Shown in pieces: positions 232-44,356 of a DNA stretch of 64,000 nucleotides. The notes under the pieces are model-generated. The model ran no database searches. It had not been told where the DNA came from and saw only the letters and a program-made list of their open reading frames with translations. The position numbers were made by a program, and so were the translations under genes. Every line of letters starts with the position of its first letter. Position 1 is the first letter of the stretch. This stretch comes from an uncultured delta proteobacterium (lineage in GTDB: Bacteria; Desulfobacterota; Desulfovibrionia; Desulfovibrionales; Desulfovibrionaceae): NCBI GenBank assembly GCA_903835685.1, contig CAILNX010000017.1:1-64000 (forward strand), read 5' to 3'.

Positions 232-254
232 GGAGCGCGATGCCGCCGTTGGGT

Positions 255-968
255 TCAGCCCAGGTTCTTGGCCACGAAATCCCAGTTGACCAGCTTGTCC
301 AGGAAGGCCGTCACATAGTCGGCCCGGCGGTTCTGATAATCCAGGTAGTAGGCATGCTCCCAGACGTCCACGGTGAGCAGGGCCACCTGGTTGGAGGTCA
401 TGGGCGTGGCCGCGTTGGCGGTTTTCACCACCTTGAGCTTGCCCTCCTCCTTGACCAGCCAGGCCCAGCCACTGCCGAACTGGCCCACGGCCGTGTCGGT
501 GAACTCCTTCTTGAAAGCCTCGAATCCTCCGAAGGCCCCGTTTATGGCCTCCAGGACCTTGCCCGTGGGCGCGCCGCCGCCACCGGGCTTGATGCCGTTC
601 CAATAGAAGGTGTGGTTCCAGGCCTGGGCCGCGTTGTTGAACAGGGCCATGGCCGAGGGGTCCTTGGCCGCTTCCAGGACGATCTTGTCCAGGGGCATGG
701 CGGCCAGGGGCTTTCCAGCCACCATCTTGGCCGTGTTGGCATAGTAGAGGGCCGTGTGTTTGCCGAAGTGGAAGCCGATGGTCTTGGCCGAGATGACCGG
801 CTCCAGGGCCGCTTCGGGGAAGGGCAGGGCCGGGGCCATCGGGCCTTCCTCGGCCCAGGCCAGACCGCCAAGTCCCAGGCCGTTGGCCGCAACCAGACCG
901 CAGACCCCTGCGGCCGAAGCCAGAAACATCCTGCGGGTCATACCGGAGTCAGTGATTTGGTTTTTCAT
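255..968 (-). CDS. sodB: Tat-exported iron superoxide dismutase
   Basis: Converts superoxide to oxygen and hydrogen peroxide. The 237-residue product matches the Fe-type SodB family: metal-ligand contexts GFHFGKH, WNHTFYWN and DVWEHAYY are all present, and NNAAQ and FGSGWAWL are typical of the iron form. The N-terminus carries a twin-arginine signal (TRRMFLASA, followed by a hydrophobic stretch ending ...AWA), so the enzyme should act in the periplasm, as known for Desulfovibrio FeSOD. The start was set at the ATG of MKNQITDS because GGAGGG sits five bases upstream and a near-consensus promoter lies just before it; an upstream in-frame ATG would fall at the predicted transcription start. It stands alone, with its own promoter and terminator. 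Confidence 0.95.
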   Translation of the reverse strand: MKNQITDSGMTRRMFLASAAGVCGLVAANGLGLGGLAWAEEGPMAPALPFPEAALEPVISAKTIGFHFGKHTALYYANTAKMVAGKPLAAMPLDKIVLEAAKDPSAMALFNNAAQAWNHTFYWNGIKPGGGGAPTGKVLEAINGAFGGFEAFKKEFTDTAVGQFGSGWAWLVKEEGKLKVVKTANAATPMTSNQVALLTVDVWEHAYYLDYQNRRADYVTAFLDKLVNWDFVAKNLG

Positions 969-1004
969 TATCCCTCCAACAGTTAGAGGTTCAATCATGG
1001 CCTG

Positions 1005-1032
1005 ATTGTATCCGAGAAAGCGGTCATGTCAA
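1005..1032 (-). promoter_or_regulatory. sigma-70-type promoter of sodB
   Basis: On the minus strand TTGACA (1027-1032) and TACAAT (1005-1010) are separated by 16 bases. Transcription would begin near 998, giving a leader of about 30 bases with a strong ribosome binding site. The -35 element is perfect and the -10 has one mismatch. Confidence 0.7.
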
Positions 1033-1134
1033 GGGAAGCAGAGATCGTTTATTGGCCGTGCCCCGCTTCAGGGGACGGGTTCATGGCCTCCCGGTCACCC
1101 GGTTCAGTTGAAATCGGTGCGCAAAAAGCAAAGT

Positions 1135-1170
1135 GGCCCAGCCGGGCCGATGGGTCAGCCCGGCTGGGCC
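1135..1170 (-). terminator. serS terminator hairpin
   Basis: A perfect 13-bp stem (GGCCCAGCCGGGC with its complement) lies 26 bases after the serS stop codon. The T-rich stretch on the minus strand starts only after a few bases (ACTTTGCTTTTT), so termination is likely but not textbook. Confidence 0.6.
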
Positions 1171-1195
1171 GGAAGGAACTCAAGGAGGATTTTTT

Positions 1196-2476
1196 CTAGA
1201 CCGGCAGGATGACGTGCTCCTCGCCGTGCAGGTAGGGCCGCAGGACCTCGGGAATGACCAGGGAGCCGTCGGCCTGCTGATAATTCTCCAGCACGGCCAC
1301 CAGGGTCCGGCCCACGGCCAGGCCCGAGCCGTTCAAGGTGTGCACCAGGGCGCTCTTCTTGGACTGCTTGGACTTGAAGCGGATGCCCGCCCGCCGGGCC
1401 TGGAAGTCCTCGAAATTGGTGCAGGAGGAGATTTCCCGAAACTTCTGCTGGCCGGGCAGCCAGACCTCGATGTCGTAGGTCTTGGCCGAGCCGAAGCCCA
1501 TGTCCCCGGTGCACAGGGTGATGACCCGGTAGGGCAGGCCCAGGCGCTGGAGGATGACCTCGGCATGCCGGGTGAGCAGATCCAGGGCTTCCCAGGACCG
1601 TTCGGGGTGCTCGAAGCGGACCAGCTCCACCTTGTGGAACTGGTGCTGGCGGATGAGGCCCTTGGTGTCCTTGCCGTAGGACCCGGCCTCGGAGCGGAAG
1701 CAGGGGGTGAGCGCGCAGTAGGTGATGGGCAGATCGTCCTCGGTCAGGGTCTCGTCCCGGTGCATGTTGGTCAGGGGTACCTCGGCCGTGGGGATGAGAT
1801 AGTAGTCGGTCCCGGCCAGCTTGAACAGGTCGTCGGCGAATTTGGGGAGCTGGCTGGTGCCCGTGAGGCTGGCGCTGTTCACGATGTACGGGGGCAGGAC
1901 CTCGACATACCCGTGCTCCCGGGTCTGCACGTCGAGCATGAAGGAGGCCAGGGCCCGCTCCAGGCGCGCGGCCCAGCCCAGGGACACGGCAAAGCGCGAG
2001 CCGGTGATCTTGGCCGCCCGCTCGAAATCCAGGCCGCCCAGGGCCGCGCCCAGCTCCCAGTGCTCCTTGGGCTCGAAATTAAAGGCCGGGATATCTCCCC
2101 AGGTGCGCAGCACGGGATTGTCGTGCTCGCTCTGGCCCAGGGGCACGGACTGGTGCGGGATGTTGGGCACGGACATGAGCCAGGCCGTCTCAGCCTCTTC
2201 GATGGTGGAGAGTTCGGCCTCCAGGACCTTGATCCGATCCGAGACCGTGGCCATGCGGGCCAGAAGCTCGGTGGCCTCTCCGCCCTCGCGCTTGGCCTTG
2301 GCGATATCTCCCGAGGCCTTGTTCCGTTCGGCCTTCAAGGCCTCGGACTCCTGGAGCAGTTCCCGGCGGCGGTCGTCCAGGGCCGTGAATTCGGCGATAT
2401 CCAGGGAACTTGCGCGTCGGGCCAGGGCTTCGCGCACCAGTTCGGGATGTTTTTGCACCAGTTTCAAATCCAGCAT
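1196..2476 (-). CDS. serS: Serine--tRNA ligase
   Basis: Charges tRNA-Ser with serine in the cytoplasm. The 426-residue product has the family's N-terminal coiled-coil arm (roughly residues 30-110, rich in Glu, Arg and Lys) that binds the long variable arm of tRNA-Ser, followed by a class II catalytic core. Visible core motifs are [16 protein letters not shown] (motif 2) and [17 protein letters not shown] (motif 3). Length equals the usual 420-430. The start was placed at the second of two close ATGs (MLDLKLV): AGGAG lies eight bases before it but only two bases before the first, and the family begins with MLD. It is divergent from pncC across a 226-bp gap. Confidence 0.97.
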
Positions 2477-2702
2477 GGTCATATCTCCTTCATCGCGTGG
2501 TGCTTTCGCATACGGTTTTTCGGGGAAAAAACCAAGCCCGGGAATGGGACGGCCGGGCCGGAGGGAAGTGTCGAACAACGGATATTTATGCGGGCAACCA
2601 CTCTCGAAATAAGGGTTGGCGAAACTCGGAAAACGTGGCATGCGGGCTGCAAGCATTGTCAGGAGCATCGGTTGCCCGGGTGATCCCGGACGAGGAGGGC
2701 GC

Positions 2703-3188
2703 ATGGCCGGGAGAGAAACCCTGAAGAACGTGACCAGATTGGGTGAGATCCTGGTGGCCCGGGGGCTGTTCATGGCCGTGGCCGAGTCCTGCACGGGCGG
2801 GCTTTTGGCCGACACCCTGACCAATGTGTCCGGCAGTTCGGACTGGTTTTTGGGCGGGCTGGTGGCCTACGCCAATTCCATCAAGACCGGTCTCTTGGGC
2901 GTGCCTTCGGAAGAGCTGATCCGATACGGGTCCGTGAGCGAACCCGTGGTCCGGCACATGGCCGAGGGTGTGCGGCGGCTCATGGGCTGCCCGGTGGGCG
3001 TGGGCCTCTCGGGCGTGGCCGGTCCCACGGGAGGCTCCCCGGACAAGCCCGTGGGCACGGTCTGGATGGCCTGGACCTTTGGGGTGGAGACCCGGGCCGA
3101 GCGCTTTTTCTTCCAGGGCAGCCGTCTGGAGATCAAGGCCCAGAGCGTGAACGCGGCCATCTCCGGGCTGTTGGCCAACCTGGGCTGA
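2703..3188 (+). CDS. pncC: Nicotinamide-nucleotide amidohydrolase (CinA C-terminal type)
   Basis: Likely deamidates nicotinamide mononucleotide to nicotinate mononucleotide in pyridine nucleotide salvage. The 161-residue product is a stand-alone CinA C-terminal domain with the diagnostic AESCTGG near residue 25, GLVAYAN, and [11 protein letters not shown] followed by KPVGTVW. The N-terminal MoaB-like domain of full CinA is absent, as in E. coli PncC. The ATG was chosen because GAGGAGGG precedes it by a few bases; a longer frame upstream has no family similarity. Confidence 0.9.
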
Positions 3189-3323
3189 GTGGAGCCGCGT
3201 CCGGGGCTTCCAGCCTGAGAAACACGGTTTGGCCAGGATGAAGAATAAGAAAAATTATTCTTTTATTCCGTGTTCTTGTACAGGCCAAGGCCGATCATCA
3301 AGCCCTGCCATCGGGGGGCACCC

Positions 3324-3953
3324 GTGATCCGCTGTTTCGTGGGCCTGCCCCTGCCCCCAAGTTATCACGACCACCTGTCCGCTCTTCTGTCCCGGCTTCG
3401 GCCCCTGGTGCGGGCGCGTTTGTCCTGGACCAGGCCGGAGAACTGGCATCTGACCCTCAAATTCCTGGGCGAAACCGAACCCGACCGGGTGGCGGCAGCC
3501 ACGGCCGCCCTGGCCGGGGTGCGTTTCCCGGGCTTTACCCTCCAGGCCGGGGGCGGGGGATTTTTCCCGGACGGGCGCAGGCCTCGGGTGCTCTGGGTGG
3601 GGCTCATCCAGGGCGGCCCGGAAAGCGCGGCCCTGGCCCAGGCCGTGGACCAGGCCCTGACTCCTCCGGGGTTCGCGCCCGAGGAGCGGCCCTTCACGGC
3701 CCACCTGACCCTGGGCCGGGTCAAGGACGATCCGGGCCAGGACTGGTCCCGGGTCCTGAATCTGCTTGGAAGTACGGCCTGGCCCGTGGCGGCCATGGAG
3801 CGCCTGGTGTTCTGGGAGAGCCGCCTGGGTCCCCGGGGACCGGCCTATGCGCCCCTGGCTGAATATCCTCTTTCAGCCGTTTCAGGGGACCGCATCCAGC
3901 CCTCGGGCGAAAACACGAAGCGGAATGAGGCCGGGGAAAAGTCAGAGGCCTGA
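3324..3953 (+). CDS. thpR: RNA 2',3'-cyclic phosphodiesterase (2H superfamily)
   Basis: A LigT/ThpR-type 2H phosphoesterase that hydrolyses 2',3'-cyclic phosphate RNA ends. Both catalytic H-x-T-x signatures are visible: HLTLKFLGE near residue 45 and HLTLGRV near residue 130. The start is a GTG (VIRCFVGLP) preceded five bases upstream by GGGGGG; another GTG at 3270 would add 18 residues unlike the family. The last 30 residues are a polar extension. Its stop overlaps, tail to tail by 12 bp, the end of the sensor kinase gene on the other strand. Confidence 0.88.
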   Translation: MIRCFVGLPLPPSYHDHLSALLSRLRPLVRARLSWTRPENWHLTLKFLGETEPDRVAAATAALAGVRFPGFTLQAGGGGFFPDGRRPRVLWVGLIQGGPESAALAQAVDQALTPPGFAPEERPFTAHLTLGRVKDDPGQDWSRVLNLLGSTAWPVAAMERLVFWESRLGPRGPAYAPLAEYPLSAVSGDRIQPSGENTKRNEAGEKSEA

Positions 3954-6239
3954 AGTCTTTTCCTTGGAGGCCAACACCCGTTCCATCACCGTGTTCAATT
4001 CAGTGAGGTCCACGGGTTTGGACACATAGCCATCCATCCCGGCCTCCAGGAAGCGCTCCTTGTCCCCGCGCATGGCGTGGGCGGTCAGGGCGATGATGGG
4101 GATGCTGGACCTGGGGCCGAAACGATCCGGGTTGCGTATCTCCCGGGTGGCCTCCACCCCGCCCATGACCGGCATCTGGATGTCCATGAGGATGAGGTTG
4201 AAGGGCCGGGACGACAACAGGTCCAGGCAGGCCTTCCCCTCTTTGGCAATGACCGCGACATGGCCTGCTTTCTCCAGCAAACGCTTGATGGCCATGGCGC
4301 TCGTCTCGTCGTCTTCGACCACCAGGATGCGCCTGGACAGGTTCGCGAATGGACGCTCCATCACGGGCGTCGTGTCCGGGGAGTCCGATTCGGCGACAGG
4401 CAGACCGCACTCGACGGAGCAACGAAAGGTCGTGCCCTGCCCGACCGTACTGGTCACGGTGATGTCCCCGTGCATGAGTTCAACCAGGCGCTGCACGATG
4501 GACAGCCCAAGTCCGGCCCCTTGGCGGGTCCGGGTGATGGAGCCGTCAATTTGTTTGAATGATTCAAAAATGGTGGCGATCTTGTCCTCGGGGATGCCCT
4601 GGCCGGTATCGCTGACCGTGAGCACCAGACGGCATCTGGAGGGGGTCTGCCCGGGAAAGACGGCCAAGCCAAGGGTGACTTCCCCCTGGTCCGTGTGCTT
4701 GAAGGCGTTGCCCAGGAGATTGGTCAGGATTTGGGTGAGGCGCAGTTCATCCCCGATCAGGGTCTCGGGCGTGGCGGAATCGAGGGCCGCGCGCAGGGGC
4801 ATGTTCTTTTCCATGCTCACGGCCAGGAAGACATCCACCATGCCCCGCAAGAGCGCAAGCGGTGAGAATTCACTCTCCACGATTTCGATCTTTCCGGCCT
4901 CGATGCGCGACAGGTCCAGGATGTCGGTCAGAAGCCGCGTCAGGCGTTGGCCCGATTGCATGGCCGCGGAGACGCACTCGGCCTGTTCCGGGGTGGGGCT
5001 GCTCATGGCGATCACTTGGAGCATGCCCAGGATACCATTCAAGGGGGTGCGGATCTCATGGCTCATGTTGGCCAGGAATTCGGACTTGGCGCAGGTGGAG
5101 GCCTCGGCCTGCTCCTTGGCCTGGCGAAGCGCCTCCTCGACCCGCTTGCTCTCGGTGACGTCGGGGATGACCGCCAGAAAACGCTCGTCCAGGGAGGCCC
5201 CGGAAATCTCCACGATGCGGGCCTGGCCCGTTCGGTCGGTTATGGCGCAGGCCATGGGCGCGCCAGGGGGCAGCCTCCCGGCGGACTGTCCGACGGCCTG
5301 GTCCCAGGCGGCCATCATCCGCTGCCGGGAGTCCGGGTCCGGGCAGGCCATGGCCCCCCATTGCTGCAGATTCGCTATGTCTTCAGGAGCTTGGCCGAAC
5401 ATCTGCCGGAAGCGGTCGTTGCAATCCAGGATCGCGCCCGCACTGTTCACCAGACACAGGGAAACCGGGGCCGCGTTGAAGAGCTGGTGGAATTTCAGGG
5501 CGCTCTCCCGGAGGCTCTCATCCGCTTCCAGCCGGGACAGGGCCATGGCCACGCTTTCAGCCATGAATTCCAGGAAGGCGATGAGCTCCGGGGTGAAGCG
5601 GCCTTCCCGGTGGTCGTTGAACTGCAACAGCCCGTAGGTCTTCTCCCCGGAGCGAAGCGGGACCAGGGCCACGGATTCGTATCCCACGCCATTGCAGCGG
5701 TTGCGGGTGGAGGACTGCCGATCCGCCTCCGTGCTTCCGGCCAGAAGCGCGGTGGTCCCGTTGGACCAGAAGCTGCCCCGGCCGGAGAAAAAGGGCAGGT
5801 CCGGGTTGGTGCGCCCCTGGATGACGTTGCCGCACATGCATTCGAGCCGGGGGTTGCCGTTTTTGTCCAGAACCGGTCGGCCGTCGCTGCCGGTTATGCA
5901 CAGGCGGTTCTCCATTTGGACGAATTCCTCGGAGAACCCCCTGGTCTCGAAATAGGGATAGTCCAGCCCCTCCCGGAAGCGGATGCCCACGGAGTCGCAA
6001 CCGGACCAGTCGCGCATCTGGTTGATCAGGCGGCGCAGGATGTCCTGGGCCTTTCCCTGGGTGCTCAAGGTGCGGATGAGTTCAGTGGTTTGGGCGAAAA
6101 CGTCCGTGGAAGGGCGGGAAGCGCCGGTCCTTGTTCCAGGCCCGGCCTGATCCGGTCCTTCCAGTTCCGTGACCCGCCCGCGCAGCGAGACCAGTTCGGC
6201 CAGGAGTTCGCTACGGGATTTTTCGGCATCCGGTTTCAT
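3942..6239 (-). CDS. GAF-PAS hybrid sensor histidine kinase with C-terminal receiver
   Basis: A 765-residue soluble hybrid kinase with no membrane segment. Order: short coiled coil (5-35), GAF-like domain (about 50-235, containing several Cys residues around CMCGNV), PAS domain (about 245-370), HisKA with phospho-acceptor His394 in SHEIRTPLNG, HATPase with N, G1 (DTGQGIPED) and G2 (GAGLGLSI) boxes, and a receiver with Asp686 in LILMDIQMPVMGG and the conserved Lys in YVSKPVD. The Cys-containing GAF region could sense a ligand or redox state, but the signal is not known. No partner regulator is adjacent. GAGGG lies just before the ATG. Confidence 0.9.
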   Translation of the reverse strand: MKPDAEKSRSELLAELVSLRGRVTELEGPDQAGPGTRTGASRPSTDVFAQTTELIRTLSTQGKAQDILRRLINQMRDWSGCDSVGIRFREGLDYPYFETRGFSEEFVQMENRLCITGSDGRPVLDKNGNPRLECMCGNVIQGRTNPDLPFFSGRGSFWSNGTTALLAGSTEADRQSSTRNRCNGVGYESVALVPLRSGEKTYGLLQFNDHREGRFTPELIAFLEFMAESVAMALSRLEADESLRESALKFHQLFNAAPVSLCLVNSAGAILDCNDRFRQMFGQAPEDIANLQQWGAMACPDPDSRQRMMAAWDQAVGQSAGRLPPGAPMACAITDRTGQARIVEISGASLDERFLAVIPDVTESKRVEEALRQAKEQAEASTCAKSEFLANMSHEIRTPLNGILGMLQVIAMSSPTPEQAECVSAAMQSGQRLTRLLTDILDLSRIEAGKIEIVESEFSPLALLRGMVDVFLAVSMEKNMPLRAALDSATPETLIGDELRLTQILTNLLGNAFKHTDQGEVTLGLAVFPGQTPSRCRLVLTVSDTGQGIPEDKIATIFESFKQIDGSITRTRQGAGLGLSIVQRLVELMHGDITVTSTVGQGTTFRCSVECGLPVAESDSPDTTPVMERPFANLSRRILVVEDDETSAMAIKRLLEKAGHVAVIAKEGKACLDLLSSRPFNLILMDIQMPVMGGVEATREIRNPDRFGPRSSIPIIALTAHAMRGDKERFLEAGMDGYVSKPVDLTELNTVMERVLASKEKTSGL

Positions 6240-6359
6240 GTTTCCCTCAGCCCATGACGGGGCCTTTCCTACATGATTCTGGACGTACGGAGTTCCCGGC
6301 CTTCCCCCAAATTAGCGCACTCGATGGCCTGAACACAAGCCTTTTGTGTCTGCCTCGGA

Positions 6360-7907
6360 TCATAAATCCTTGAACACTGCCTCCATGGCCTCCAGAAACA
6401 CCCCGTTCTGCTCCGGCAGGCCCACGCTCACCCGCAAGGCCTGGGGAAACCCGTAGCCGTTCATGGTGCGCACCAGCACGCCCTTTTTGGCCAGCCCCTC
6501 GGCCACGTCCTGGGCCGGACGGGGCGGGATGAAGAACACGAAATTGCCCTGGCCCGGGACCGGGTCGCAGCCCAGGGCCGTGAGCCCCTTGGCCAGCCGG
6601 TCGCGCTCGGTGATGGCCATGCTCAGGGACTCCATGGCGTGGTCGGTGTCGGCCAGCACGGCCAGGCCCGCGGACTCGGCCAGGCTGTTCACGGAAAAAG
6701 GCAGGCGCACCCGCCTGAGCACGTCGGCCAGGGATTCGTGCATGAGGCCGTAGCCCAGCCTGAGCCCGGCCAGGCCGAACCCCCGGCAGAAGGACCGGAT
6801 CACCACCAGGTTGGGGAAGCGGTCCAGAAGCGGCAGGATGGAGTACTCCTCGTCGGGCCAGGCGAAATCAATGAGGGTCTCGTCCACGATGACCAGGGTG
6901 GTCTCGGGCATCAGGGCGGTCATGACCGTGAGTTCCTCGGTGGTGGCCGCGTGTCCGGTGGCCTCGTCGGGATTGGACAAAAGCACGGCGGCCGTGTTCG
7001 GCCCGGCGGCCTGGACCAGGGCCTCCAGGGGCAGGGAGAAGTCCGGCTCCCGCGGGGTGCGGCGCAACTCCACCCGGCAGAGGTCCGCGATGATCTGGAA
7101 GCGGGGCGGGCAGGCCGCGCCGGTGAGCACGTGGTCCTGGCCCGGCCTGGCCTTGACCCGCAGGATCAGGTCAATGAGTTCGTTGAGCCCGTTGCCTACC
7201 AGGATGCGGTTTTCGGGCTGGCGCAGATGCCGGGCCAGGGCGGCCACCAGGTCCGGGGACCCATTCTGGGGGTAGTGGTGAATCTGGGGGGCGCGGGCCA
7301 GGGCCGCGTTCAGGGCCAGGGCCGGGATGCCCATGGGATTGGTGTCCTGGTCCAGGCGCAGGGTCGGTTCCAGGAGCCCGGCAGGCGCGGGGCAGGCCGG
7401 GCCAGCCTGGGGCGAGGGCAGGGCGGCCTCTTCCGAGGCCGGGACGCAAGGGCGGGGTCCGGGCTTGCGGCCCAGGCGCGGCTTTGCGGCCGGGGACTTG
7501 GGCGCGGCAGGCCTGGCCGGGGCCAGGCCGCGCAGGGCCTCCAGGATGGCCGAGGTGTCCCGGGCGCTCCCGTCGTCGGCCTTGCGCACCAGGTCTTCCA
7601 GGATGTTCAGGCTGTCCAGAAGGATGTTCACGGCCTGGGCCACGGCGGCTGGGGTTGTCTCGGATCGGGCCAGGGGGGGCAGGGCCTGCTCCATGGCCAG
7701 GGAAAGATCATGAATGCCCGCGAAATCCATGAGCCCGGCCCGCTCGGCCAGGGAGTCCAGGCTCCGGGCCAGGTCCCCGGCCTGCTGCGGGGTGGGGCGG
7801 GCCTGGGAGCGGTCCAGGGCCATGAGCGCATCGCCGATCTCGGCCACCTGGTCCAGGGACTGGTCGAGGAAATTCTGGATCAGGTCGTCAGGATCGAGGT
7901 CGGGCAT
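6360..7907 (-). CDS. Degenerate Hpt-like domain fused to a HisC-like aminotransferase pseudoenzyme
   Basis: A 515-residue fusion. Residues 1-125 form a helical domain resembling a CheA/Hpt histidine phosphotransfer domain, but where Hpt proteins have AHSxKGxA this one reads SLDSLAERAGLMDF; a gapless alignment puts Asp51 at the phospho-acceptor position. A Pro/Ala-rich linker (about 125-190) joins it to a fold-type I aminotransferase most like histidinol-phosphate aminotransferase (HisC). The PLP-lysine motif SFSKxFGLAG is SFCRGFGLAG, so the Schiff-base Lys is Arg375 (codon 6783-6785). The cofactor-contacting Asn of NPNNPTG is Glu315, and the Tyr three residues after Asp342 is Leu345. Asp342 and Arg383 remain. 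Spacing between these positions matches HisC, so the alignment is firm. Seen: the substitutions. Inferred: no transaminase activity, possibly a binding or regulatory role. Automatic annotation as hisC would be misleading. Confidence 0.82.
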   Translation of the reverse strand: MPDLDPDDLIQNFLDQSLDQVAEIGDALMALDRSQARPTPQQAGDLARSLDSLAERAGLMDFAGIHDLSLAMEQALPPLARSETTPAAVAQAVNILLDSLNILEDLVRKADDGSARDTSAILEALRGLAPARPAAPKSPAAKPRLGRKPGPRPCVPASEEAALPSPQAGPACPAPAGLLEPTLRLDQDTNPMGIPALALNAALARAPQIHHYPQNGSPDLVAALARHLRQPENRILVGNGLNELIDLILRVKARPGQDHVLTGAACPPRFQIIADLCRVELRRTPREPDFSLPLEALVQAAGPNTAAVLLSNPDEATGHAATTEELTVMTALMPETTLVIVDETLIDFAWPDEEYSILPLLDRFPNLVVIRSFCRGFGLAGLRLGYGLMHESLADVLRRVRLPFSVNSLAESAGLAVLADTDHAMESLSMAITERDRLAKGLTALGCDPVPGQGNFVFFIPPRPAQDVAEGLAKKGVLVRTMNGYGFPQALRVSVGLPEQNGVFLEAMEAVFKDL

Positions 7908-8013
7908 GCACGGGGCTCCTTGGGACTGTCGGCCCGGGTCAGGGCCGCAACGGCAGAGTGGCCCATGCCCGCCGAACCTGTCAAGCGGCCAGCCGCCCTG
8001 ATGGGTGCCGGGG

Positions 8014-9249
8014 TCAGTCCAGGATGCGGGAGATGATGGCGCTTGAAACCAGCATGCCGTTCTTGGTCAGGCGCAGGCGGCCCTGGTTCACCCGGGCCAG
8101 GCCGTTTTGGCGCAGGGCCTGGATCAGGGCCTTCTTGTCCGCCAGCAGGGCCTTGCCCGTGAGGGCCAAGTAGTCGCTGAGGAGCGCGCCCCGGGTGGTG
8201 CGCAGGCCGAGCATGAGCCGTTCGCGCAGGAGCGTGGCCGGGTCCAGGGCTTCGAAGTCCCGGCCCGTGGTCTCCTGGCGCACGGCTGCGTCGTAGTCCT
8301 CCATGGCCCGGGCATTGGCAAAGCGCCGGGTCCCCAGGGTGGACACGGCCGACGGCCCCAGGCCCAGATAGTCCCGGCCCTCCCAGTATCCGCTGTTGTG
8401 GCGGCTGGCGAATCCCAGGCGGGCGAAATTGGAGATTTCGTAGTGCAAAAGCCCCTCGCTCTCCAGGTATTCCGCGCCGAGCACGTACATGCGGGCCTGC
8501 TCGTCCTCCGGGGGCAGGGTCAGCTCCCCGGCCTGGATGCGGCGGGTGAAGGGCGTGCCCTCCTCCTGGGTCAGGCCGTAGCAGGACAGGTGCTGGGGGG
8601 CCAGTTCCTTGACCACTGTCCTTAACTGGCCGAGCCAGTCCTGGAGCCTCTGCCCGGGCAGGCCCCAGATCAGGTCCAGGCCCACGTTGGCCAGCCCGGC
8701 CCGGCGGGCCAGGGCCAGGGCGGACGTGGCCTGGGCCGCACTGTGCGGACGTCCCAGCCGGGCCAGGTGTTCGTCGGACAGGCTCTGCACGCCCAGGCTC
8801 AGGCGGTTCACGCCCAGGGAGGCCAGGGAGGCGAACCAGCCCGCGTCGCCCACGGAATCCGGATTGGCCTCCATGGTGATCTCCGCGTCCCGGTCCAGGT
8901 CAAAGGACTGGCGCGCGGCGCTCACGATCCGGTTCAGGTCGGCCAGGGACAGGAGGCTGGGCGTGCCCCCGCCCAGATACAGGGTCTCGGCCTTGGGCCG
9001 GTTCAGCCTGCGACCCCAGAGCCCGATCTCGGCGACCAGGGTCTTCACGTACCAGGCCGCCGTGACCTGGTTGTACACCTGGGAGTGGAAGGCGCAGTAG
9101 GCGCACTTCTGGCGGCAGAAGGGCACGTGCACGTAGAGCAGGAGCTTCTTTTCCCCTGGCCCGGTCTTGAGGGCCAGGCTGTCCAGAGGGTTTGGGGCCG
9201 GGGCCTTGGGCCGGGTCAGGGCCTCCACCTCGCCGAAGAATCTGGGCAT
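8014..9249 (-). CDS. hemW: HemW-type radical SAM heme chaperone
   Basis: A 411-residue radical SAM protein. The cluster motif CRQKCAYCAF has the CxxxCxxC cysteines but lacks the extra CxC cysteine of true coproporphyrinogen III oxidase HemN, which places it with HemW, a heme-binding protein. GGGTPSLL, the glycine-rich SAM-contact segment, and the HemN C-terminal domain are present. It ends the minus-strand run rng-queH-hemW, 18 bp after queH. GGGGAG precedes the ATG. Older annotations may call it an oxygen-independent coproporphyrinogen oxidase. Confidence 0.88.
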   Translation of the reverse strand: MPRFFGEVEALTRPKAPAPNPLDSLALKTGPGEKKLLLYVHVPFCRQKCAYCAFHSQVYNQVTAAWYVKTLVAEIGLWGRRLNRPKAETLYLGGGTPSLLSLADLNRIVSAARQSFDLDRDAEITMEANPDSVGDAGWFASLASLGVNRLSLGVQSLSDEHLARLGRPHSAAQATSALALARRAGLANVGLDLIWGLPGQRLQDWLGQLRTVVKELAPQHLSCYGLTQEEGTPFTRRIQAGELTLPPEDEQARMYVLGAEYLESEGLLHYEISNFARLGFASRHNSGYWEGRDYLGLGPSAVSTLGTRRFANARAMEDYDAAVRQETTGRDFEALDPATLLRERLMLGLRTTRGALLSDYLALTGKALLADKKALIQALRQNGLARVNQGRLRLTKNGMLVSSAIISRILD

Positions 9250-9267
9250 GGGCTTCTCCCCTCGGGT

Positions 9268-9846
9268 TCAGGACGGCGCCAGGCCCGTTTCAGCGGCCAC
9301 GGCGCGCGCAAGCTCCCGGGCGTAGCGCTCGGCCTCGCTGTACAGGCACCCGCAATACTGCTGGCGATAGAGCCCCCACTCCTTGGACCGGGTCACTCCC
9401 TCTTTCCAGCCCTCCCGGAAATCCTGGTACAGGAAATCCAGGCCCTGGGCCTGGGCCGCCGCGAGTCCGGCCTGCCGGATGGCCTCGTGCTTCTGGTACT
9501 TGCTGTACAGCAGGGAGGTGGTGAAGGCCGTAAACCCCATCTCCCGGGCCGCCCGGGCCGTGGGCTCCAGGCGCAGGGCGTAGCAGGGGGGGCAGCGCTC
9601 CTCCTCCCGGCCGGTCACGGCCTGGAAAAAGACCCGGGGCTGGTACTCCGCGTCCGGGAAGAGCACCGGGATGTCCAAAAGGCGCGCCGCCTGGAGCAGG
9701 GTCTCCCGGCGGCGCAGATATTCGGTCAGGGGATGGATGTTGGGATTAGAGAAGTACCCGGTCACCTCGAATCCCTGGGCCTTTAAGGCCGACACCGGCA
9801 CGATGGCGCAGGGGCCGCAGCACAGGTGCACGAGGACGCGGGCCAT
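9268..9846 (-). CDS. queH: Epoxyqueuosine reductase QueH
   Basis: Catalyses the last step of queuosine tRNA modification, reduction of epoxyqueuosine, as the non-cobalamin alternative to QueG. The 192-residue product has the family's cysteine pattern: LCCGPCA at residues 9-14, CPPCYALR near 80 and QQYCGCLYSE near 155, which hold an iron-sulfur cluster and a metal. The gene lies 3 bp after rng and 18 bp before hemW, so it is translated within one operon. Confidence 0.92.
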   Translation of the reverse strand: MARVLVHLCCGPCAIVPVSALKAQGFEVTGYFSNPNIHPLTEYLRRRETLLQAARLLDIPVLFPDAEYQPRVFFQAVTGREEERCPPCYALRLEPTARAAREMGFTAFTTSLLYSKYQKHEAIRQAGLAAAQAQGLDFLYQDFREGWKEGVTRSKEWGLYRQQYCGCLYSEAERYARELARAVAAETGLAPS

Positions 9847-9849
9847 GGC

Positions 9850-11313
9850 TCACTTGGCCTGGATGTTGATCTTGCGCTCGAAGCGGCGCTCCAGCTCCTG
9901 CAGGGTCTCCCGCTTGTGGTTGAGCAGGTGCATGGCCGTCTCCATGGCGGTCTCGTAGACCAGGGCCGTGTCCGTCCCGTGCTTGCCGCGCAGGAGCCGG
10001 TGGATGTCTTTTAAGGCCTGGACCGACTGCCATTCCATGTTCCGGCGGATGCCCGTGCCCTGGCAGCAGGGGCAGGGCTCGGTGGAAAGCGATATGGCCG
10101 AGGAGCCCAGGCGCTGGCGGATGACCTCCAGGAGGCCAAAGGGCGAGATGCGGCCGCAGTCCGTGCGCGCCCGGTCGTTTTTCAGCGCGGTCTTTAAGGT
10201 CTTTTCCACTTCCCGGCAGTGCTTGGGGTCCTTCATCTCGATGAAGTCCACCACGATCTGGCCGCCGATGTCCCGGAGCATGAGCTGGTGGGCGATCTCC
10301 TCGGCCGCTTCCTGGTTGGTTTTCAGGGCCATGGCCTTGAAATTCTTCTCGCCCCCGATCTTGCCGGAGTTGATGTCCACGGCCATGAGGGCTTCGGTCT
10401 GATCAAAGACCAGGCGGCCCCCCGAGGGCAGGGTCACTTCCCGGCCGCAGACCTGCTCGATCTGCTTGACCAGGTTGAAGCGCTCCCAGAGGTTCTTGTC
10501 CGTGTCCGCATGCACCTTGACCAGGCCCGCGCGGCGGGGGAAGGCCACGGCCGCGAATTCCGTGACCTGCTCGGCGGTCTCGGCGTCGTCCAGCCAGATT
10601 TCGGTCACTTCCGGGGACAGGTAGTCGCGCACGGCCCGGGCGGCCAGGTTCAGCTCCTTGTATACTTGGCAGGGGGCCTTATCGATCTGGGCTTTTTTGC
10701 GGATGTCCGTCCACACCCGGCTCAAGTACTTGAAGTCCTGGGAGATGCGCTGCTTGCTTAAGCCCGTGGACACCGTGCGCACGATGACCCCGATGCCCGG
10801 GTCCGGGGTGATGTGCTCGAACATGGATTTGAGCCGGGCGCGCTCGGTCTCGTCCTCCACCTTGCGCGAAACCCCGAGTTGCTCCCGGCCCGGGGTGAGC
10901 ACCAGGTAGCGGCCGGGCAGGGAGATGTAGGAGGTCAGGAAGGCCCCCTTCTTGCCCGTGGGCTCCTTGACCACCTGGACCAGGATTTCCTGGCCGGGCT
11001 TGAGCACCTTTTGCAGGGGCGGATACTTGGCCCCTTTGCGCAGGGGATAGGAGCCCGTGTAGTATTCGGGATGGATTTCATCCACCTGGAGGAAGCCGTT
11101 GCGTTCGGCCCCGTAGTTGATGAAGGCGGCTTGCAGGGCCGGGTCGATGTTGTGGATGTACCCCTTGTAGATGTTGCCCCGGGTCTTTTCCTGGTGCAGC
11201 ATTTCCACGTAGTATTCCAGGACCCGTCCTTCCTCGGCGATGAGCACTTCCACCTGTTCGCCGGGCAGGACACTGATGAACATTTTTTGACGTTTTTTTA
11301 CGATGGCGGTCAT
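9850..11313 (-). CDS. rng: Ribonuclease E/G
   Basis: A single-strand endoribonuclease for rRNA maturation and mRNA turnover. The 487-residue product has the S1 RNA-binding domain (about 40-125, with GNIYKGYIHNIDPALQAAFI), the DNase I-like catalytic core with metal-binding DQTEALMAVDINSGK, and the zinc-link CPCCQGTG near residue 420. The length is that of RNase G; the large C-terminal scaffold of RNase E is absent. It is the first gene of the rng-queH-hemW run. Confidence 0.93.
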   Translation of the reverse strand: MTAIVKKRQKMFISVLPGEQVEVLIAEEGRVLEYYVEMLHQEKTRGNIYKGYIHNIDPALQAAFINYGAERNGFLQVDEIHPEYYTGSYPLRKGAKYPPLQKVLKPGQEILVQVVKEPTGKKGAFLTSYISLPGRYLVLTPGREQLGVSRKVEDETERARLKSMFEHITPDPGIGVIVRTVSTGLSKQRISQDFKYLSRVWTDIRKKAQIDKAPCQVYKELNLAARAVRDYLSPEVTEIWLDDAETAEQVTEFAAVAFPRRAGLVKVHADTDKNLWERFNLVKQIEQVCGREVTLPSGGRLVFDQTEALMAVDINSGKIGGEKNFKAMALKTNQEAAEEIAHQLMLRDIGGQIVVDFIEMKDPKHCREVEKTLKTALKNDRARTDCGRISPFGLLEVIRQRLGSSAISLSTEPCPCCQGTGIRRNMEWQSVQALKDIHRLLRGKHGTDTALVYETAMETAMHLLNHKRETLQELERRFERKINIQAK

Positions 11314-11366
11314 TGGTTCCTCATGAGCGAAAATTTTTGAAATGTATGCAAACGCACAGGCGTTCG

Positions 11367-12335
11367 TCAGCGTTGGATCGGGCCGTAAAAGCCCCGTGAA
11401 TCAGGGTCGCCTGCCCCCCTATCCGCGATGCGGCCCGCCTCGAGCAGTTCGGCCAGGGCCGAGGCCACCAGGCGGGGGGGCGCTCCCAGGCCCAGGGCCA
11501 ACTGCGTCGCGGTCTGGGGCCGCCGGGCCAGGGAGGAGGCAATCATATCCTGGAGTTCGGCAAATCTCAAATCGCCCCGTTCGCCCTGATCCGAGGCCGG
11601 AGTCGGGGCTGGGGCCGCGCCCTGGCCCAGGGCCTTGCGCCAGGCGGCCAGGGTGTCCTGGTCCACGGCCCGGGCCGTGGGCAGGGTGCCGGGCCGGGTC
11701 AAGGTGACCACGTCCACCCGGTCCGGGCCAAGCTCCGGGATGAAGGCCGCCAGGGCCTCCAGGTTGGCCGCAGTGTCGTTTACTCCATGCACCAGCAGGA
11801 TTTCCAGGTACAGCCGCCCGGCAAAACCGGCCCGGAAATCCAGGAGCCCCTGGCGCAGGCCGTCTAGGGTCAGGTCCGCATGGGGGCGGCTTACGGCCGC
11901 GAACTCTGCGGGAACCAGGGTGTCCAGGGAGGGCAGGACCACCTCGGCCTGGGCCAGGTCCTGGCGCACGGCCGGGTCGGACAGGAGCGTGGAATTGGTC
12001 AGCACGGCCGTGGGCACGTCCGGAAACAGGGCCTTGGCTCCGGCCAGGATGGCCGAAAGCTCCAGATTCAAGCAGGGCTCGCCGCTCCCGCCCAGGGTGA
12101 TGTGGTCCAGGGGCGGCCCATTCTGATTCTTGAACTGGTCCTTGAACTGGGCCAGTTCCTTAAGCAGGACCTGGGCCGGGACGTACGGCCCGCGCGAGAG
12201 CGTCAGGACCCGGGTGGCCCCGACCTCGCAGTAGACGCAGTCCAGGGAGCAGATCTTGGCCCCCAGAAGGTCCAGGCCCAGGGAGCGTCCCAGGCGGCCG
12301 GACAGGACCGGCCCGAAAATGTGCGTATAGGCCAT
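11367..12335 (-). CDS. Radical SAM protein of the wyosine-synthase-like type
   Basis: A 322-residue radical SAM protein. The cluster motif is CSLDCVYCEVG (CxxxCxxC), followed by the SAM-binding GGSGEP. It resembles the COG0731 group of archaeal wyosine enzymes, which in bacteria is of unknown function. Residues 245 to the end form an extra region with a winged-helix-like segment (TATQLALGLGAPPRLVASALAEL, here quoted only in part as TATQLALGLGAPP). The start at MAYTHIFGP is supported by the family N-terminus; the upstream open frame is antisense to trmI. It is divergent from trmI with about 60 bp between the two starts. Confidence 0.82.
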   Translation of the reverse strand: MAYTHIFGPVLSGRLGRSLGLDLLGAKICSLDCVYCEVGATRVLTLSRGPYVPAQVLLKELAQFKDQFKNQNGPPLDHITLGGSGEPCLNLELSAILAGAKALFPDVPTAVLTNSTLLSDPAVRQDLAQAEVVLPSLDTLVPAEFAAVSRPHADLTLDGLRQGLLDFRAGFAGRLYLEILLVHGVNDTAANLEALAAFIPELGPDRVDVVTLTRPGTLPTARAVDQDTLAAWRKALGQGAAPAPTPASDQGERGDLRFAELQDMIASSLARRPQTATQLALGLGAPPRLVASALAELLEAGRIADRGAGDPDSRGFYGPIQR

Positions 12336-12395
12336 GCTTGACTTCCCCTGTCGCCCGCCGTAGGGCTGGGGTCCTTTTTCCTTGGGAGGTGACGG

Positions 12396-13271
12396 ATGAC
12401 GGTTGAACCCGGACAAGTGGTACTGTTCCTGGGGCCTACAGGCAAGCGATATTTGCGCATGCTGGAGGCTGGAGCCCAGTTGCACACCCATCACGGTTTT
12501 CTGGAGATGGACGCAGCGGCCGAGGCCGGGTTCGGGGCCACCATCCCGACCCACAAGGGAACCCCCTACACCATGATCAAGCCCACCATCTATGATTTGA
12601 TCAAGGGCGTGAAGCGGGCCACCCAGATCATGTACCCCAAGGAGATCGCCTACACCCTGGTCAAGATGGGCATCGGCCCGGGCACCAAGGTCATCGAGGC
12701 GGGCAGCGGCTCGGGCGGGTTCACCGTGGCCCTGGCCTACTACGTGGGTGACACGGGCAAGGTCTACACCCACGAGCGCCGGGACGATTTCTTCAAGCTC
12801 ACCGGCCAGAACCTGGCCCGCTACGGCCTGTCCCACCGGGTGGAGCAGTTCCAGCAGGACATCGAGGAGGGCTTTGCGGTCACGGGCGCGGACTGCCTGT
12901 TCCTGGACGTGCGCACGCCCTGGGACTACCTTGCGCACATCCCCAAGGCCGTGATCCCCGGGGCCATGCTCGGCTTTCTTTTGCCCACCACCAACCAGGT
13001 CCAGGACCTTTTGCTCGGGCTGGAGCAGGGGCCGTTCTCGGACGTGGAGGTGCTGGAGATCCTCATCCGGCGCTACAAGACCGTGCCCCAGCGCCTGCGG
13101 CCCGACGACCGCATGGTGGCCCACACGGGATTCCTGATTTTCGCCCGCTGTCTGGCCGAAGTGAAGGCCCCCGGGGTGAAGTTCAAGTCTAAGGACGACG
13201 AGGAGACGGCGGACGAGGGCCAGACCGAAAGCCAGCCCACGGAACAGGACAGGGACGAAAGCGGGGAATAG
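12396..13271 (+). CDS. trmI: tRNA (adenine-N1)-methyltransferase
   Basis: Methylates A58 in the T loop of tRNAs. The 291-residue product has the TrmI N-terminal barrel and a Rossmann methyltransferase core with SAM-binding IEAGSGSGGFT near residue 108, and the pre-core segment TYPKEI-type motif (here MYPKEIAY). The last 40 residues are acidic and low in complexity. GGGAGGTGA lies just before the ATG. It is followed by a hairpin shared with the converging FKBP gene. Confidence 0.92.
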   Translation: MTVEPGQVVLFLGPTGKRYLRMLEAGAQLHTHHGFLEMDAAAEAGFGATIPTHKGTPYTMIKPTIYDLIKGVKRATQIMYPKEIAYTLVKMGIGPGTKVIEAGSGSGGFTVALAYYVGDTGKVYTHERRDDFFKLTGQNLARYGLSHRVEQFQQDIEEGFAVTGADCLFLDVRTPWDYLAHIPKAVIPGAMLGFLLPTTNQVQDLLLGLEQGPFSDVEVLEILIRRYKTVPQRLRPDDRMVAHTGFLIFARCLAEVKAPGVKFKSKDDEETADEGQTESQPTEQDRDESGE

Positions 13272-13293
13272 CCCGACCTTGACCATTGCACGA

Positions 13294-13329
13294 AAAAAGG
13301 GCTCCCACCGCCAGGTGGAAGCCCTTTTT
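13294..13329. terminator. Bidirectional terminator between trmI and the FKBP gene
   Basis: A long stem (AAAAAGGGCT/CCACC side pairing with GGTGGAAGCCCTTTTT) around a GCCA loop, flanked by A residues on one side and T residues on the other. It lies between two converging stop codons and can terminate both transcripts. Confidence 0.8.
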
Positions 13330-13348
13330 GTTTCCGCCGCGTCAGCGG

Positions 13349-14170
13349 TTATTTCTTCTTCTCGGCCTTGGCTTCAGCCTTGGCCGCGTCCTTCTTAACT
13401 TCGGGCTTGGCCGCAGGCTTGACCGCAGGCTCGGCCGCCAGGGACGGCTCCTTCTCGCCGGTGATCTCGGTGAGCTCCAGGTCGAAGACCAGCACGGAAT
13501 TGGGGGCGATGTTCGGACCGGCCTGCTTGTCCCCGTAGGCCAGCTCCGAGGGGATGACCACCTGGAACTTGGAGCCCACTTCCATGAGCTGCAGGGCCTC
13601 GGCGAATCCGGGGATCACGCCGCCCACCGGGAACTTGGCGGGCTGGTTGCGGGCGTAGCTGGAGTCGAACTCCGTGCCGTTGATGAGCGCCCCGCGGTAG
13701 TGGACCATGACCACGTCCTCGGGCTTGGGCTTGGGACCCGAGCCCTTGGTGATGACCTTGTACTGCAGGCCGCTCTTGGTGGTGACCACCCCTTCCTTCT
13801 TCTTGTTCTCTTCCAGGAACTTGGCCCCGTCGGCCTTGTTCTGTTCGCCGACTGTCTTCATCTTCTCGTTCTCCATGGCCTGCTTGGCCATCATCTCGGT
13901 CTGCATGGACTGCATGGCCTCCTGGAGGTCCTTGTCAGCCACCAGGGGCTTGGCCCCGGACAGGGAGTCCTTGATGCCCTGGGCCACCAGGTCCGGGTTC
14001 AGCTTGAAGGGAAAGGACTGGAGGTTGCCCGCGATGTCCATGCCGATGCCGTAGCTGATCTTGTCTTCACGGGTTTTCACGTCCAGGGTCGGGGCGGCCT
14101 CTTTGCTCGAACCGCAGGCCGGAAGGCCCAGGATCAAGGCGGCCAGGGCCGCCATGCACAATTTCTTCAT
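13349..14170 (-). CDS. FKBP-type peptidyl-prolyl isomerase lipoprotein
   Basis: Catalyses proline cis-trans isomerisation on secreted proteins. The 273-residue product has a lipoprotein signal (MKKLCMAALAAL... ending LPACGSS, Cys22 the likely lipidated residue), an FkpA/Mip-type helical N-terminal dimerisation domain (about 35-130), the FKBP domain (about 140-235, with VMVHYRGALINGTEFDSS and GVIPGFAEAL) and a 35-residue Lys/Ala/Glu-rich tail. The start was chosen at the signal peptide, with GGAGA upstream; a longer frame adds residues with no signal character. Confidence 0.92.
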   Translation of the reverse strand: MKKLCMAALAALILGLPACGSSKEAAPTLDVKTREDKISYGIGMDIAGNLQSFPFKLNPDLVAQGIKDSLSGAKPLVADKDLQEAMQSMQTEMMAKQAMENEKMKTVGEQNKADGAKFLEENKKKEGVVTTKSGLQYKVITKGSGPKPKPEDVVMVHYRGALINGTEFDSSYARNQPAKFPVGGVIPGFAEALQLMEVGSKFQVVIPSELAYGDKQAGPNIAPNSVLVFDLELTEITGEKEPSLAAEPAVKPAAKPEVKKDAAKAEAKAEKKK

Positions 14171-33184: not shown

Positions 33185-35047
33185 TCATGCCTGGGGGTCC
33201 ATCGCATCGATTCCGTCCGGTTCCAGGGCGGCTCCGGGCAGGGCTCTCATCCCGCCACGGTTCGGAGCCGAGCGCCCCATCTTGAAGAAGGACATGATCC
33301 GGATCAGCTCCGCGGATTGGGAGGTCAGCTCCTGGGTGGTGGCGGCCAGTTCTTCCGAGGCCGAGGCGTTTTCCTGGATGGTCTTGTCCAACTGCTGCAC
33401 GGCCTTGTTGATCTGTTCCGCGCCCACGTTCTGTTCGTTGCACGAGGCGGAGATTTCCTGGACCAGGTCAGCGGTCTTTTTGATGTCCGGCACCAGCTTT
33501 AAGAGCATGGCCCCGGCCCGCTCGGCCACGGCCACGCTGCGGCTGGAAAGCGCCCCGATCTCCCCGGCCGCGGTCCCGCTGCGTTCGGCCAGCTTGCGCA
33601 CCTCGGCGGCCACCACGGCAAAGCCCTTGCCGTGCTCTCCGGCCCGGGCGGCCTCGATGGCCGCGTTCAAGGCCAAGAGATTGGTCTGGCGGGCGATTTC
33701 CTCCACGATGCCGATCTTGCTGGCGATCTCGCGCATGACCTGCACGGTCTCGGTCACGGCCTCTCCGCTGGCGGCAGCCTCCTGGGCCGCGGCCAGGGCG
33801 ATCTTCTCGGTCTCCTGGGCGTTGTGGGCGTTGTGGCGGATGTTGCCGGACATCTCCTCCACCGAGGAAGAGACCTGGGACACGGACGCGGCCTGGGCGC
33901 TGTTGCCGCTGGACAGGGAATCAGCGGCCTGGGAGATGGTGGCCGCCTCGTGGGCCACGGTGTCCGCGCCAATGCGTACGCTTAAGACCACTTCCCGCAG
34001 GCGTTCGGCCATGCGCTGCATGGCCTGGGCCATGCGGCCCATTTCGTCGTTGCCCTCCAGGCGGAAATCGTCGTCCAGACGCCCCTCGGCCACGCGCTGG
34101 GAAAAGATCATGCCGGCCCGCACCGGCCCGACAATGGCCCGGGTGATGGACCAGGCGATGAAGAGCCCCAGGAGCAGGCCAAGCCCGGTGCTGGCCAGCA
34201 TCCAGGCGCGCACCGAGGTCTTCTGGTCGGCCATCTTCTGCCTTTGGTCCGAGGTGAGCTGGTCGCACACGGCATGCACGGCCCGGGCTCCGGCCACCAT
34301 TTCCTTGTCCGCATTGATCTGGGCCTGGGCCAGGGACCAGATGGCCTTGGCGTTGTCCCCGGCCACGGAGAAAAAGGTCTTGAGCCCGGCCGCCGCGGTC
34401 TTGCCCTGGGCCGAGAGGGATTCCAACCGCCCGAGGCTGGCCGTGACCGGGCCGCCCGCCGCTTGCCAGGCCTCCCAGGCCTTTTCGTCCTTGTCCTGGC
34501 CGAGGCGGGCCAAGGCCCCGCGCATCTTCAGGTATCCGGGCAGGATTTCCCGGCGGAAGAGGGCCGATTCAGCTTCGGCGGCCTGGCCCAGGTCTTCGGC
34601 CATGGCCGTGTTCAGGCGGGAGAATTCAGTGTCCAGGCCGAGAGTTACGGCCAGGCGCTGCTTGAACTGACCTTCCAGCTCCACAAAGCCCAAAAAGGCC
34701 TGGTGGTATTTTTCCAGGCCCTTGACCAGTTCGTCCATCTGCTTGCGGTTGGCCGGGTCAATGAACTGGCCTTTCAAGTTCGCGGCGCGCTGGGCGGATT
34801 CCTTGACGATGGCCGTGACCTTGTCCACGTAGCTGGCTTCGCCCCGGATGATGAAATTCTTCTCGTGCCGACGGGCTTCCAGCATGTCCTTTTCCAGGGC
34901 GGCCACGGCCTGGAGTTTCTCCGTGCGTTCTCCCAGCCGGGAGAGCCCCTCGACGCCGAGTCCAGCGGCCACCATGGACAGAAGAAGGACCAGGCCGAAG
35001 CCCATCCCCAGCTTGACGCCGAGTCCTGCATTCTTCCAGACAGTCAT
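33185..35047 (-). CDS. Methyl-accepting chemotaxis protein
   Basis: A 620-residue chemoreceptor. An N-terminal helix (about 12-32) and a second helix (about 300-325) bracket a periplasmic all-helical sensor region of about 265 residues, similar in size to a double four-helix (HBM-type) domain; HEKNFIIRG near residue 60 is typical of that class. HAMP follows, then the signalling domain with the conserved hairpin tip [20 protein letters not shown]. The start at MTVWKNAGL was chosen because the longer frame has no matching N-terminus; its ribosome site is weak. The ligand is unknown. Confidence 0.92.
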
Positions 35048-35209
35048 GGCCGGATCACCATCCCAACAACCACGGGGTTGGACAATAATTGATCTCCAAC
35101 GCGTACAGAATTTCGTCCTGTTCCACAAGAGAGCGATTGCTCACTCAGGCCAGATAAGGTCATATTTTTCGCCGGGTCCAGGGCGGCGGCCCGGAGAACG
35201 GCAGATCGG

Positions 35210-36615: not shown

Positions 36616-40087
<3,472 letters not shown>

Positions 40088-40091
<4 letters not shown>

Positions 40092-42194: not shown

Positions 42195-42217
42195 TTTATC
42201 CGTGTGGTCCGTTGATT

Positions 42218-42245
42218 GGGCGCGGGGCCTCGAGACCCCGCGCCC
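42218..42245 (-). other. Intercistronic hairpin between livJ and livH
   Basis: A perfect 10-bp stem (GGGCGCGGGG with CCCCGCGCCC) around an 8-base loop, 18 bases after the livJ stop. No T tract follows, so it is not a simple terminator. Such hairpins commonly protect the upstream message from 3' exonucleases and keep the binding protein in excess over the permeases; that role is inferred here. Confidence 0.55.
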
Positions 42246-42262
42246 TGAAGTGGCGTCGTTTT

Positions 42263-43384: not shown

Positions 43385-43407
43385 GCCTTGTCTCCTCCTT
43401 GGTCAAG

Positions 43408-44169: not shown

Positions 44170-44178
44170 GACCGGCCA

Positions 44179-44208
44179 ATCATACTGGAAAGGGAGGGTG
44201 AAAAGCAA
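44179..44208 (-). promoter_or_regulatory. Candidate promoter of the liv operon
   Basis: On the minus strand TTGCTT (44203-44208) and TATGAT (44179-44184) are separated by 18 bases. Transcription would start at or within a base or two of the livG ATG, giving a leaderless or nearly leaderless message. This fits the absence of a ribosome binding site, but is only a sequence match. Confidence 0.35.
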
Positions 44209-44356
44209 GGGGGAATCGGGGTTTTGGGCCTTCCATCCCCTGGTTTGGATTGCCAAAATTGTGAAGAAATGGGCCGGGCTGGGGATTCTGAACAACGGCC
44301 CGAATGAGCGGGTGCGGACAGAATATTGTTCGGTTCAGTAGGCCTGGCCGAGGGCC

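Follow-up and report, generated by a model that had tools for sequence, protein, structure and literature searches.

In plants, the AHP6 protein has an Hpt fold without the histidine and presumably acts by keeping its relay partners occupied, and the MocR/GabR regulators combine an aminotransferase fold with a DNA-binding domain, GabR having kept PLP. The gene analysed here, from a window of 64,000 nucleotides of an uncultured member of the Desulfovibrionaceae, encodes a protein that joins an Hpt-type bundle to a HisC-type domain. Its closest relatives by domain are the HisC aminotransferases (TIGR01141, PF00155) and the P1 domain of CheA (PF01627; structure 1i5n). With HisC it has in common the whole predicted fold, the DE pair at residues 342-343, the GLAGLRLGY stretch after the lysine site and the residues at 56 of 86 columns with a HisC conservation of 95% or more, but it differs in having other residues where the PLP site needs Lys, Asn and Tyr, in being fused to an Hpt bundle and in scoring under the curated family cut-off. 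With CheA P1 it shares a predicted P1-type helical bundle over 122 residues, but it has no phospho-His, carries Glu and not Gly or Ala four residues after that site (H+4), and continues into a HisC fold where CheA has its P2-P5 domains. Like AHP6, the window protein has an Hpt fold without the His; unlike AHP6, it comes from a bacterium and is joined to a dead metabolic enzyme, and any inhibition is putative here. GabR gives a weak match to the window protein, and the MocR/GabR family is alike in reusing the aminotransferase fold in a regulator, but the window protein has lost the PLP residues and its partner domain is an Hpt bundle. An earlier, sequence-only reading of this locus had considered the protein undescribed, in agreement with the literature that we searched (most subscription journals lay beyond reach), where none of the papers listed describes such an Hpt–HisC fusion; the parts of PMC11784015 that were available list an Hpt domain protein and show no sign of an Hpt–HisC fusion.

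The gene lies where the sequence-only reading had placed it, on the minus strand of the window, and its parts and flanking genes are as follows.

6360-7907, minus strand: whole gene, an open reading frame of 515 amino acids (pseudo-Hpt, linker and pseudo-HisC).
7518-7907, minus strand: residues 1-130, predicted CheA-P1-like Hpt helical bundle without phospho-His (AF2 with fold and sequence matches).
7755-7757, minus strand: codon 51, Asp at the phosphorylatable-His site (alignment to CheA P1 and eight ordinary Hpts).
7743-7745, minus strand: codon 55, Glu at H+4 (alignment; identical in all members).
7368-7517, minus strand: residues 131-180, Ala/Pro-rich linker (pLDDT about 30; the looser part in genus g8, described below).
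6363-7367, minus strand: residues 181-515, pseudo-aminotransferase of predicted HisC fold (TIGR01141, Pfam, AF2).
6963-6965, minus strand: codon 315, Glu (GAG) at the PLP Asn (alignment to HisC).
6873-6875, minus strand: codon 345, Leu (CTC) at the PLP Tyr (alignment to HisC).
6783-6785, minus strand: codon 375, Arg (CGG) at the PLP Schiff-base Lys (alignment to HisC).
8014-9249, minus strand: HemW/HemN-type radical SAM gene flanking the fusion gene on the same strand.
3942-6239, minus strand: hybrid histidine kinase with GAF, PAS, HisKA, HATPase and REC domains and without an Hpt of its own (Pfam).

The plus strand of 6360-7907 meets a stop already at codon 2. That the gene is a decaying copy in this genome is a highly improbable reading, for which one could cite the long branches of the window protein (1.51 in the aminotransferase tree and 2.61 in the N-domain tree) and its want of a close relative on which to measure selection. 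Against it are the intact frame of 515 amino acids, the SD-like AAGGAG at 7921-7916, 5' of the ATG at 7907, and a GC3 of 0.907, inside the 0.83-0.92 of the four neighbouring genes.

We found the same two-domain layout in all 17 genomes examined of g8, a second genus in the family. In a sample of the order, matches at E 1e-125 came from at least 18 of 297 genomes and at least 2 of 55 genera, that is, from the genome carrying the window and 17 genomes of g8, and in a sample of the phylum (395 genomes) the window's own genome stood alone among the matches listed. Across 199 genomes of the family, the full-length matches among those listed belonged to g8 and the own genome only (the match in G007 is partial here and full length in the order sample), while the other matches listed begin in the linker or the aminotransferase part, as HisC does. 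These genome searches scored the first candidates per genome, and divergent members may be missed. A scan of genome contigs gave three loci: two fusions whose proteins also came from other loci (L057, with the protein of L068, and L056, with that of L089) and L058, a remote aminotransferase. The g8 alignment has 18 rows and 17 distinct proteins, L057 repeating L068 and L056 being G313's protein. Overall identity between the window protein and those of g8 is 31-34%.

The aminotransferase assignment of the C-terminal half made by the sequence-only reading holds, with residues 182-510 matching the TIGR01141 hisC model at E 8.1e-67 and a Pfam Aminotran_1_2 (PF00155) score of 145.7 bits. Its expectation that the gene would be misannotated as hisC stands only in part: the score of 225.6 bits is under the NCBI cut-off of 276.55, so that a strict pipeline would call a generic aminotransferase and not hisC. 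The residues that it had named are all present in the translation (D51, E315, D342, L345 and R375), within the motifs NPDEATG (E315), DETLIDF (D342, L345) and SFCRGFGLAG (R375), followed by R383, and so are the spacings of 27 (315 to 342), 3 (342 to 345) and 8 residues (375 to 383). Which residues touch PLP we assigned from E. coli HisC, in which we take Asn157 and Tyr187 to hold the PLP ring. Across 42 ordinary HisCs, Lys375, Asn315 and Tyr345 are kept without exception (42/42 each); these HisCs came from fetched loci of the same order (L002-L009, L012-L040 and L076-L088), excluding L076 (the locus of L012) and L004, L005, L006, L007 and L009 (other class I aminotransferases), and with no matching ORF for the comparison in L003 and L008. 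In L003 (G000:C34:69544-70548) a HisC-like stretch lies within an open frame of 1158 amino acids, and similar frames of 850-1000 amino acids occur in many relatives; the L003 frame is possibly a cobalamin-pathway fusion. Among the losses of the window protein relative to HisC are Ser241, Asp242, Asn315, Pro316, Tyr345, Ser374 and Lys375, whereas Tyr212, Asp342, Arg383, Arg480 and Arg492 are retained.

The pocket of the g8 proteins is altered at the same positions and at others. Position 375 is Trp in 18 of 18 g8 rows; position 315 holds Ile, Val or Met and in a single row Glu, the Asn being gone from every row; and position 345 is Ser, Tyr (3/18), Cys or Ala. The g8 proteins have in addition lost Tyr212, Gly238 and Arg492, which indicates that their pocket has drifted further than that of the window protein and makes one ligand common to both genera unlikely. 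The sequence-only reading had allowed that homologues might keep Lys at 375 while this copy carried a sequencing error; same-layout proteins do exist, and none keeps the Lys. Sequencing error is ruled out by three unrelated codons, CGG, GAG and CTC, since each lies at least two base changes from any Lys, Asn or Tyr codon, respectively (CGG to AAG is also two), a distance that single errors do not account for, and by relatives that have lost equivalent residues. These relatives, in a second genus and with the same layout, also rule out that the residues disappeared by chance from a single genome.

An AF2 model of residues 175-515 built from 25 sequences has a pLDDT of 92.2 and a pTM of 0.90; a first AlphaFold run with three sequences gave a pTM of 0.31 for the aminotransferase half, which was refolded after adding aminotransferases from viral contigs. 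We observed HisC relatives encoded on 41 viral contigs (L143-L183). These distant aminotransferases have the Lys motif in 25 of the 25 examined among the 41 loci, and 22 of those examined were used in the alignment. Superposition on HisC, which the sequence-only reading had proposed, gave HisC 4wbt as the best structural match of this half (Z 43.5, rmsd 1.9 A, 337 residues); HisC 1fg3 with L-histidinol scores Z 41.4, and threonine-phosphate decarboxylase 1lc7 is close at Z 40.4. The HisC fold is intact in the model and the active site is altered. A protein that is still an enzyme, with Lys-independent chemistry such as a non-covalent PMP or PLP-free reaction, would be compatible with the intact predicted pocket fold and with the Tyr212, Asp342, Arg383, Arg480 and Arg492 kept in the window protein, and ColD-type sugar dehydratases do use non-covalent PMP. 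We nevertheless regard this as very unlikely, because the Lys has become Arg in the window and Trp in g8, Asn315 and Tyr345 are lost in the window, and Arg492 is lost in g8.

The N-terminal half had been described as a degenerate Hpt-like domain with Asp in place of the phospho-His, an assignment that sequence by itself supports weakly. The Pfam Hpt match (residues 8-98) reaches 19.9 bits with the whole protein and 23.9 bits with the N-terminal piece (gathering threshold 24.6), and two g8 fusion proteins that were scanned gave no Pfam Hpt match at E 0.1. The AF2 model has block-mean pLDDT values of 74-87 over residues 11-110, and its best structural match is CheA P1 (1i5n_C; Z 16.6, rmsd 2.6 A, 122 residues), a Z score to be read knowing that helical models with no clear relative may score as high as Z 14. 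The best PDB sequence match of the domain is also CheA P1 (E 0.0018), and Asp51 aligns under its phospho-His. A fold other than an Hpt bundle, which would have spoken against the sequence-only reading, is thus not what is predicted; the model is a CheA-P1-like bundle. As an observation on a further locus, L051 (G181) holds a CheA-like frame cut at the locus end that, by reading, has more than one Hpt-like stretch in tandem.

For comparison we used eight non-fusion Hpt loci from the N-domain search, all of which have His at the phosphorylation site (8/8) and Gly (4) or Ala (4) at H+4. In g8 the phospho-His column holds Leu, Val, Thr, Ile or Phe, so that no fusion protein has the His, and H+4 is Glu in the window protein and in 18 of 18 g8 rows (17 distinct proteins). 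Two residues, Gln16 and Glu55, are common to all fusion members and absent from the eight ordinary Hpts aligned. In a study of yeast Ypd1, the corresponding H+4 substitution, G68E, left 0.3% phosphorylation while the receiver was bound with a Kd of 0.5 uM against 0.94 uM for the wild type, and a survey of about 10,000 Hpt sequences turned up Glu at H+4 in 6 (PMC6341664). By analogy with Ypd1, a yeast protein whose own His is intact, Glu at H+4 in all members would be as expected of an Hpt retained to bind partners and no longer to transfer phosphate.

Within g8, purifying selection acts on both domains. For pairs of g8 genes, omega was 0.05-0.14 in the Hpt part (five pairs with finite dS; two saturated) and 0.03-0.10 in the aminotransferase part (seven pairs), with one independent pair fewer because L068 and L057 are one protein shared by two pairs; the linker has a higher omega than both domains. 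The loss of both sites and the recurrence of the layout in g8 bear out the view of a pseudo-phosphotransfer domain joined to a pseudo-aminotransferase. As the protein is kept though both active sites are gone, it is most likely a partner-binding regulator and not an enzyme. We therefore favour, with a probability of about 0.47, a two-domain regulator in which both halves are catalytically dead, docking on relay partners, with the pseudo-HisC as a dimeric sensor or scaffold.

The gene neighbours offer candidate partners. In 17 of 17 g8 genomes an MCP gene lies downstream on the same strand, starting about 450-500 bases away, and the MCP of L041 has 4HB, HAMP and MCP signal domains by Pfam. Upstream of the L041 fusion are HslV/HslU-type and FlgE genes (Pfam), as also, by reading, in L056 and L057. 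The L041 locus as a whole (254-13742) presents an unusual protease, flagellar-hook and signalling mix, in which the fusion follows HslV/HslU-type, FlgE and rubrerythrin-like genes and precedes the MCP. The adjacent MCP suggests a chemotaxis role in g8. It could also mean that the protein is a chemotaxis adaptor whose P1-like domain binds the P1-docking site of CheA or the array beside the adjacent MCP and damps the kinase, with no receiver role, a reading to which the CheA P1 fold match, the MCP directly downstream in all 17 genomes and the nearby FlgE (L041 and, by reading, L056 and L057) lend weight. Yet the window copy adjoins no MCP or flagellar gene, its nearest identified MCP being about 25 kb off and non-orthologous, and we consider this adaptor unlikely.

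In the window, the hybrid kinase follows directly downstream of the fusion gene on the same strand after a gap of 120 nt, and it is a possible partner of the window protein. Its sensor region gave PAS-level matches alone and no full-length match in the ten relatives searched, which rules it out as a conserved partner. Conserved synteny around hemW was also ruled out, the order RNase E/G - queH - hemW persisting without the fusion in L135 and L136. Scans for promoters and terminators gave nothing exceeding chance. Neighbours differ, a hybrid kinase in the window versus an MCP in g8, and this speaks against the favoured reading. Elsewhere in the window we noted an MCP with an HBM sensor domain (33185-35128, minus strand), the nearest one identified, about 25 kb from the fusion gene, and a cluster at 39339-44295 (minus strand) resembling the branched-chain amino-acid (LIV-type) transporter genes of g8 (names by reading); at several g8 loci an MCP and a LIV-type transporter cluster come after the fusion gene. 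Identity of the window MCP and LIV-type cluster to their g8 counterparts is about 27-50%. The window MCP is not an orthologue of the g8 MCP (about 30% over 173 residues), and the own genome has no close relative of the g8 MCP, its distant match being at E 1.6e-9. The resemblance of this MCP and transporter cluster to the g8 neighbourhood is probably coincidence.

The second, intact hisC whose presence the sequence-only reading had left to be checked is there: elsewhere in the own genome a HisC carries the intact motif TMSKAYGLAG and shares 46% identity with the window domain, and each of the 17 g8 genomes gave a second HisC-type match, which is partial in one case. Such co-occurrence, together with the entire HisC fold and the 56 highly conserved columns retained, could fit a pseudo-subunit of the cell's own HisC, in which a heterodimer would tether or regulate histidine biosynthesis and the Hpt bundle would serve as a handle; LCB1/SPTLC1, the inactive subunit of serine palmitoyltransferase, is a parallel. 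Co-presence with HisC says little, however, since HisC-type matches are near-universal in the family, and the adjoining genes are signalling genes and not his genes. On balance this arrangement seems improbable.

To place the origin of the fusion we built trees of both domains, leaving out L057 as a duplicate. In the aminotransferase-domain tree (60 rows), the window and g8 proteins are grouped against the 42 HisCs with support of 94/77, on long branches. When the two lineages were placed singly in quick trees, with 5 of the 17 proteins standing for g8, each entered the same HisC subclade (SH-aLRT 81 and 96), which adjoins the HisCs of the own genome, G007 and G023. A WP motif common to both lineages is found in 16 of the 42 HisCs, and the 12 that belong to other families within the order all lack it. 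The common subclade and motif make each HisC half look like an old duplicate of the family hisC.

The N-domain tree (26 rows) separates the 17 g8 proteins from the eight ordinary Hpts and places the window on the ordinary side (100/99), from which it follows that the window and g8 lineages may not be orthologues; a tree constrained to join the window N-domain with g8 is not rejected (p-AU 0.431). Scores against the window N-domain were 41.6 bits for the best ordinary Hpt, that of L047, and 38.6 for the best of g8. The N-domain search was dropped as support for one origin, because ordinary Hpts rank as high in it as the g8 N-domains, some of which it missed (none matched in G007, for example). 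The ordinary Hpts of L047, L048 and L053, from genus g28, are short frames of 148-154 amino acids and resemble the window N-domain no less closely than the g8 fusions do. Frames of this g28 type are a possible kind of source for the window Hpt half.

Two independent fusions and inactivations, in place of one old family, are accordingly quite possible, and function could still be alike. Convergence of this kind would account for the N-domain placement among ordinary Hpts that score as high as g8, for the different gene neighbours, and for the overall identity of only 31-34%, and the 94/77 aminotransferase grouping that opposes it rests on long branches. It has to be set against a single N-domain clade that is not rejected, the identical domain order, and the entry of each HisC half, placed alone, into the same subclade. 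The shared Glu55 and Gln16, present in all members and absent from the eight ordinary Hpts, favour one origin. With possible non-orthology and a single genome of the window's genus, the selection seen in g8 may not apply to the window gene.

Under the favoured reading of a partner-binding regulator, the pseudo-Hpt would still dock on a receiver domain or on the P1-binding site of a kinase without carrying phosphate, so that in a His-Asp relay it would be a decoy or a tether, while the pseudo-HisC would dimerise as HisC does. The setting would be chemotaxis in g8, given the adjacent MCP, and the hybrid kinase would be the candidate partner in the window. The window pseudo-HisC may bind a phosphorylated or amino-acid-like metabolite through Asp342, Arg383, Arg480 and Arg492, and such binding would make docking respond to metabolism. 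In its more specific and rather doubtful form, this would be a metabolite-gated decoy, in which a phosphorylated ligand from the histidine pathway, or a related one, would be sensed by the dead HisC, which would then switch the dead Hpt on or off a receiver or CheA.

The modes of action of inactive relatives of signalling domains and enzymes are poorly known in bacteria, and in the present case one signalling domain and one metabolic enzyme have been inactivated, joined and kept, with selection measurable in g8. By the Ypd1 precedent, what the Glu at H+4 leads one to expect is binding without transfer, and g8, with 17 genomes and an MCP next door in all of them, is where the role is directly testable. 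Metabolic models should not count such proteins as an additional HisC. If the fusion was made independently in the two genera, the same design arose twice; and if the decoy is real, amino-acid state would be coupled to a phosphorelay or to chemotaxis by a protein without catalysis of its own.
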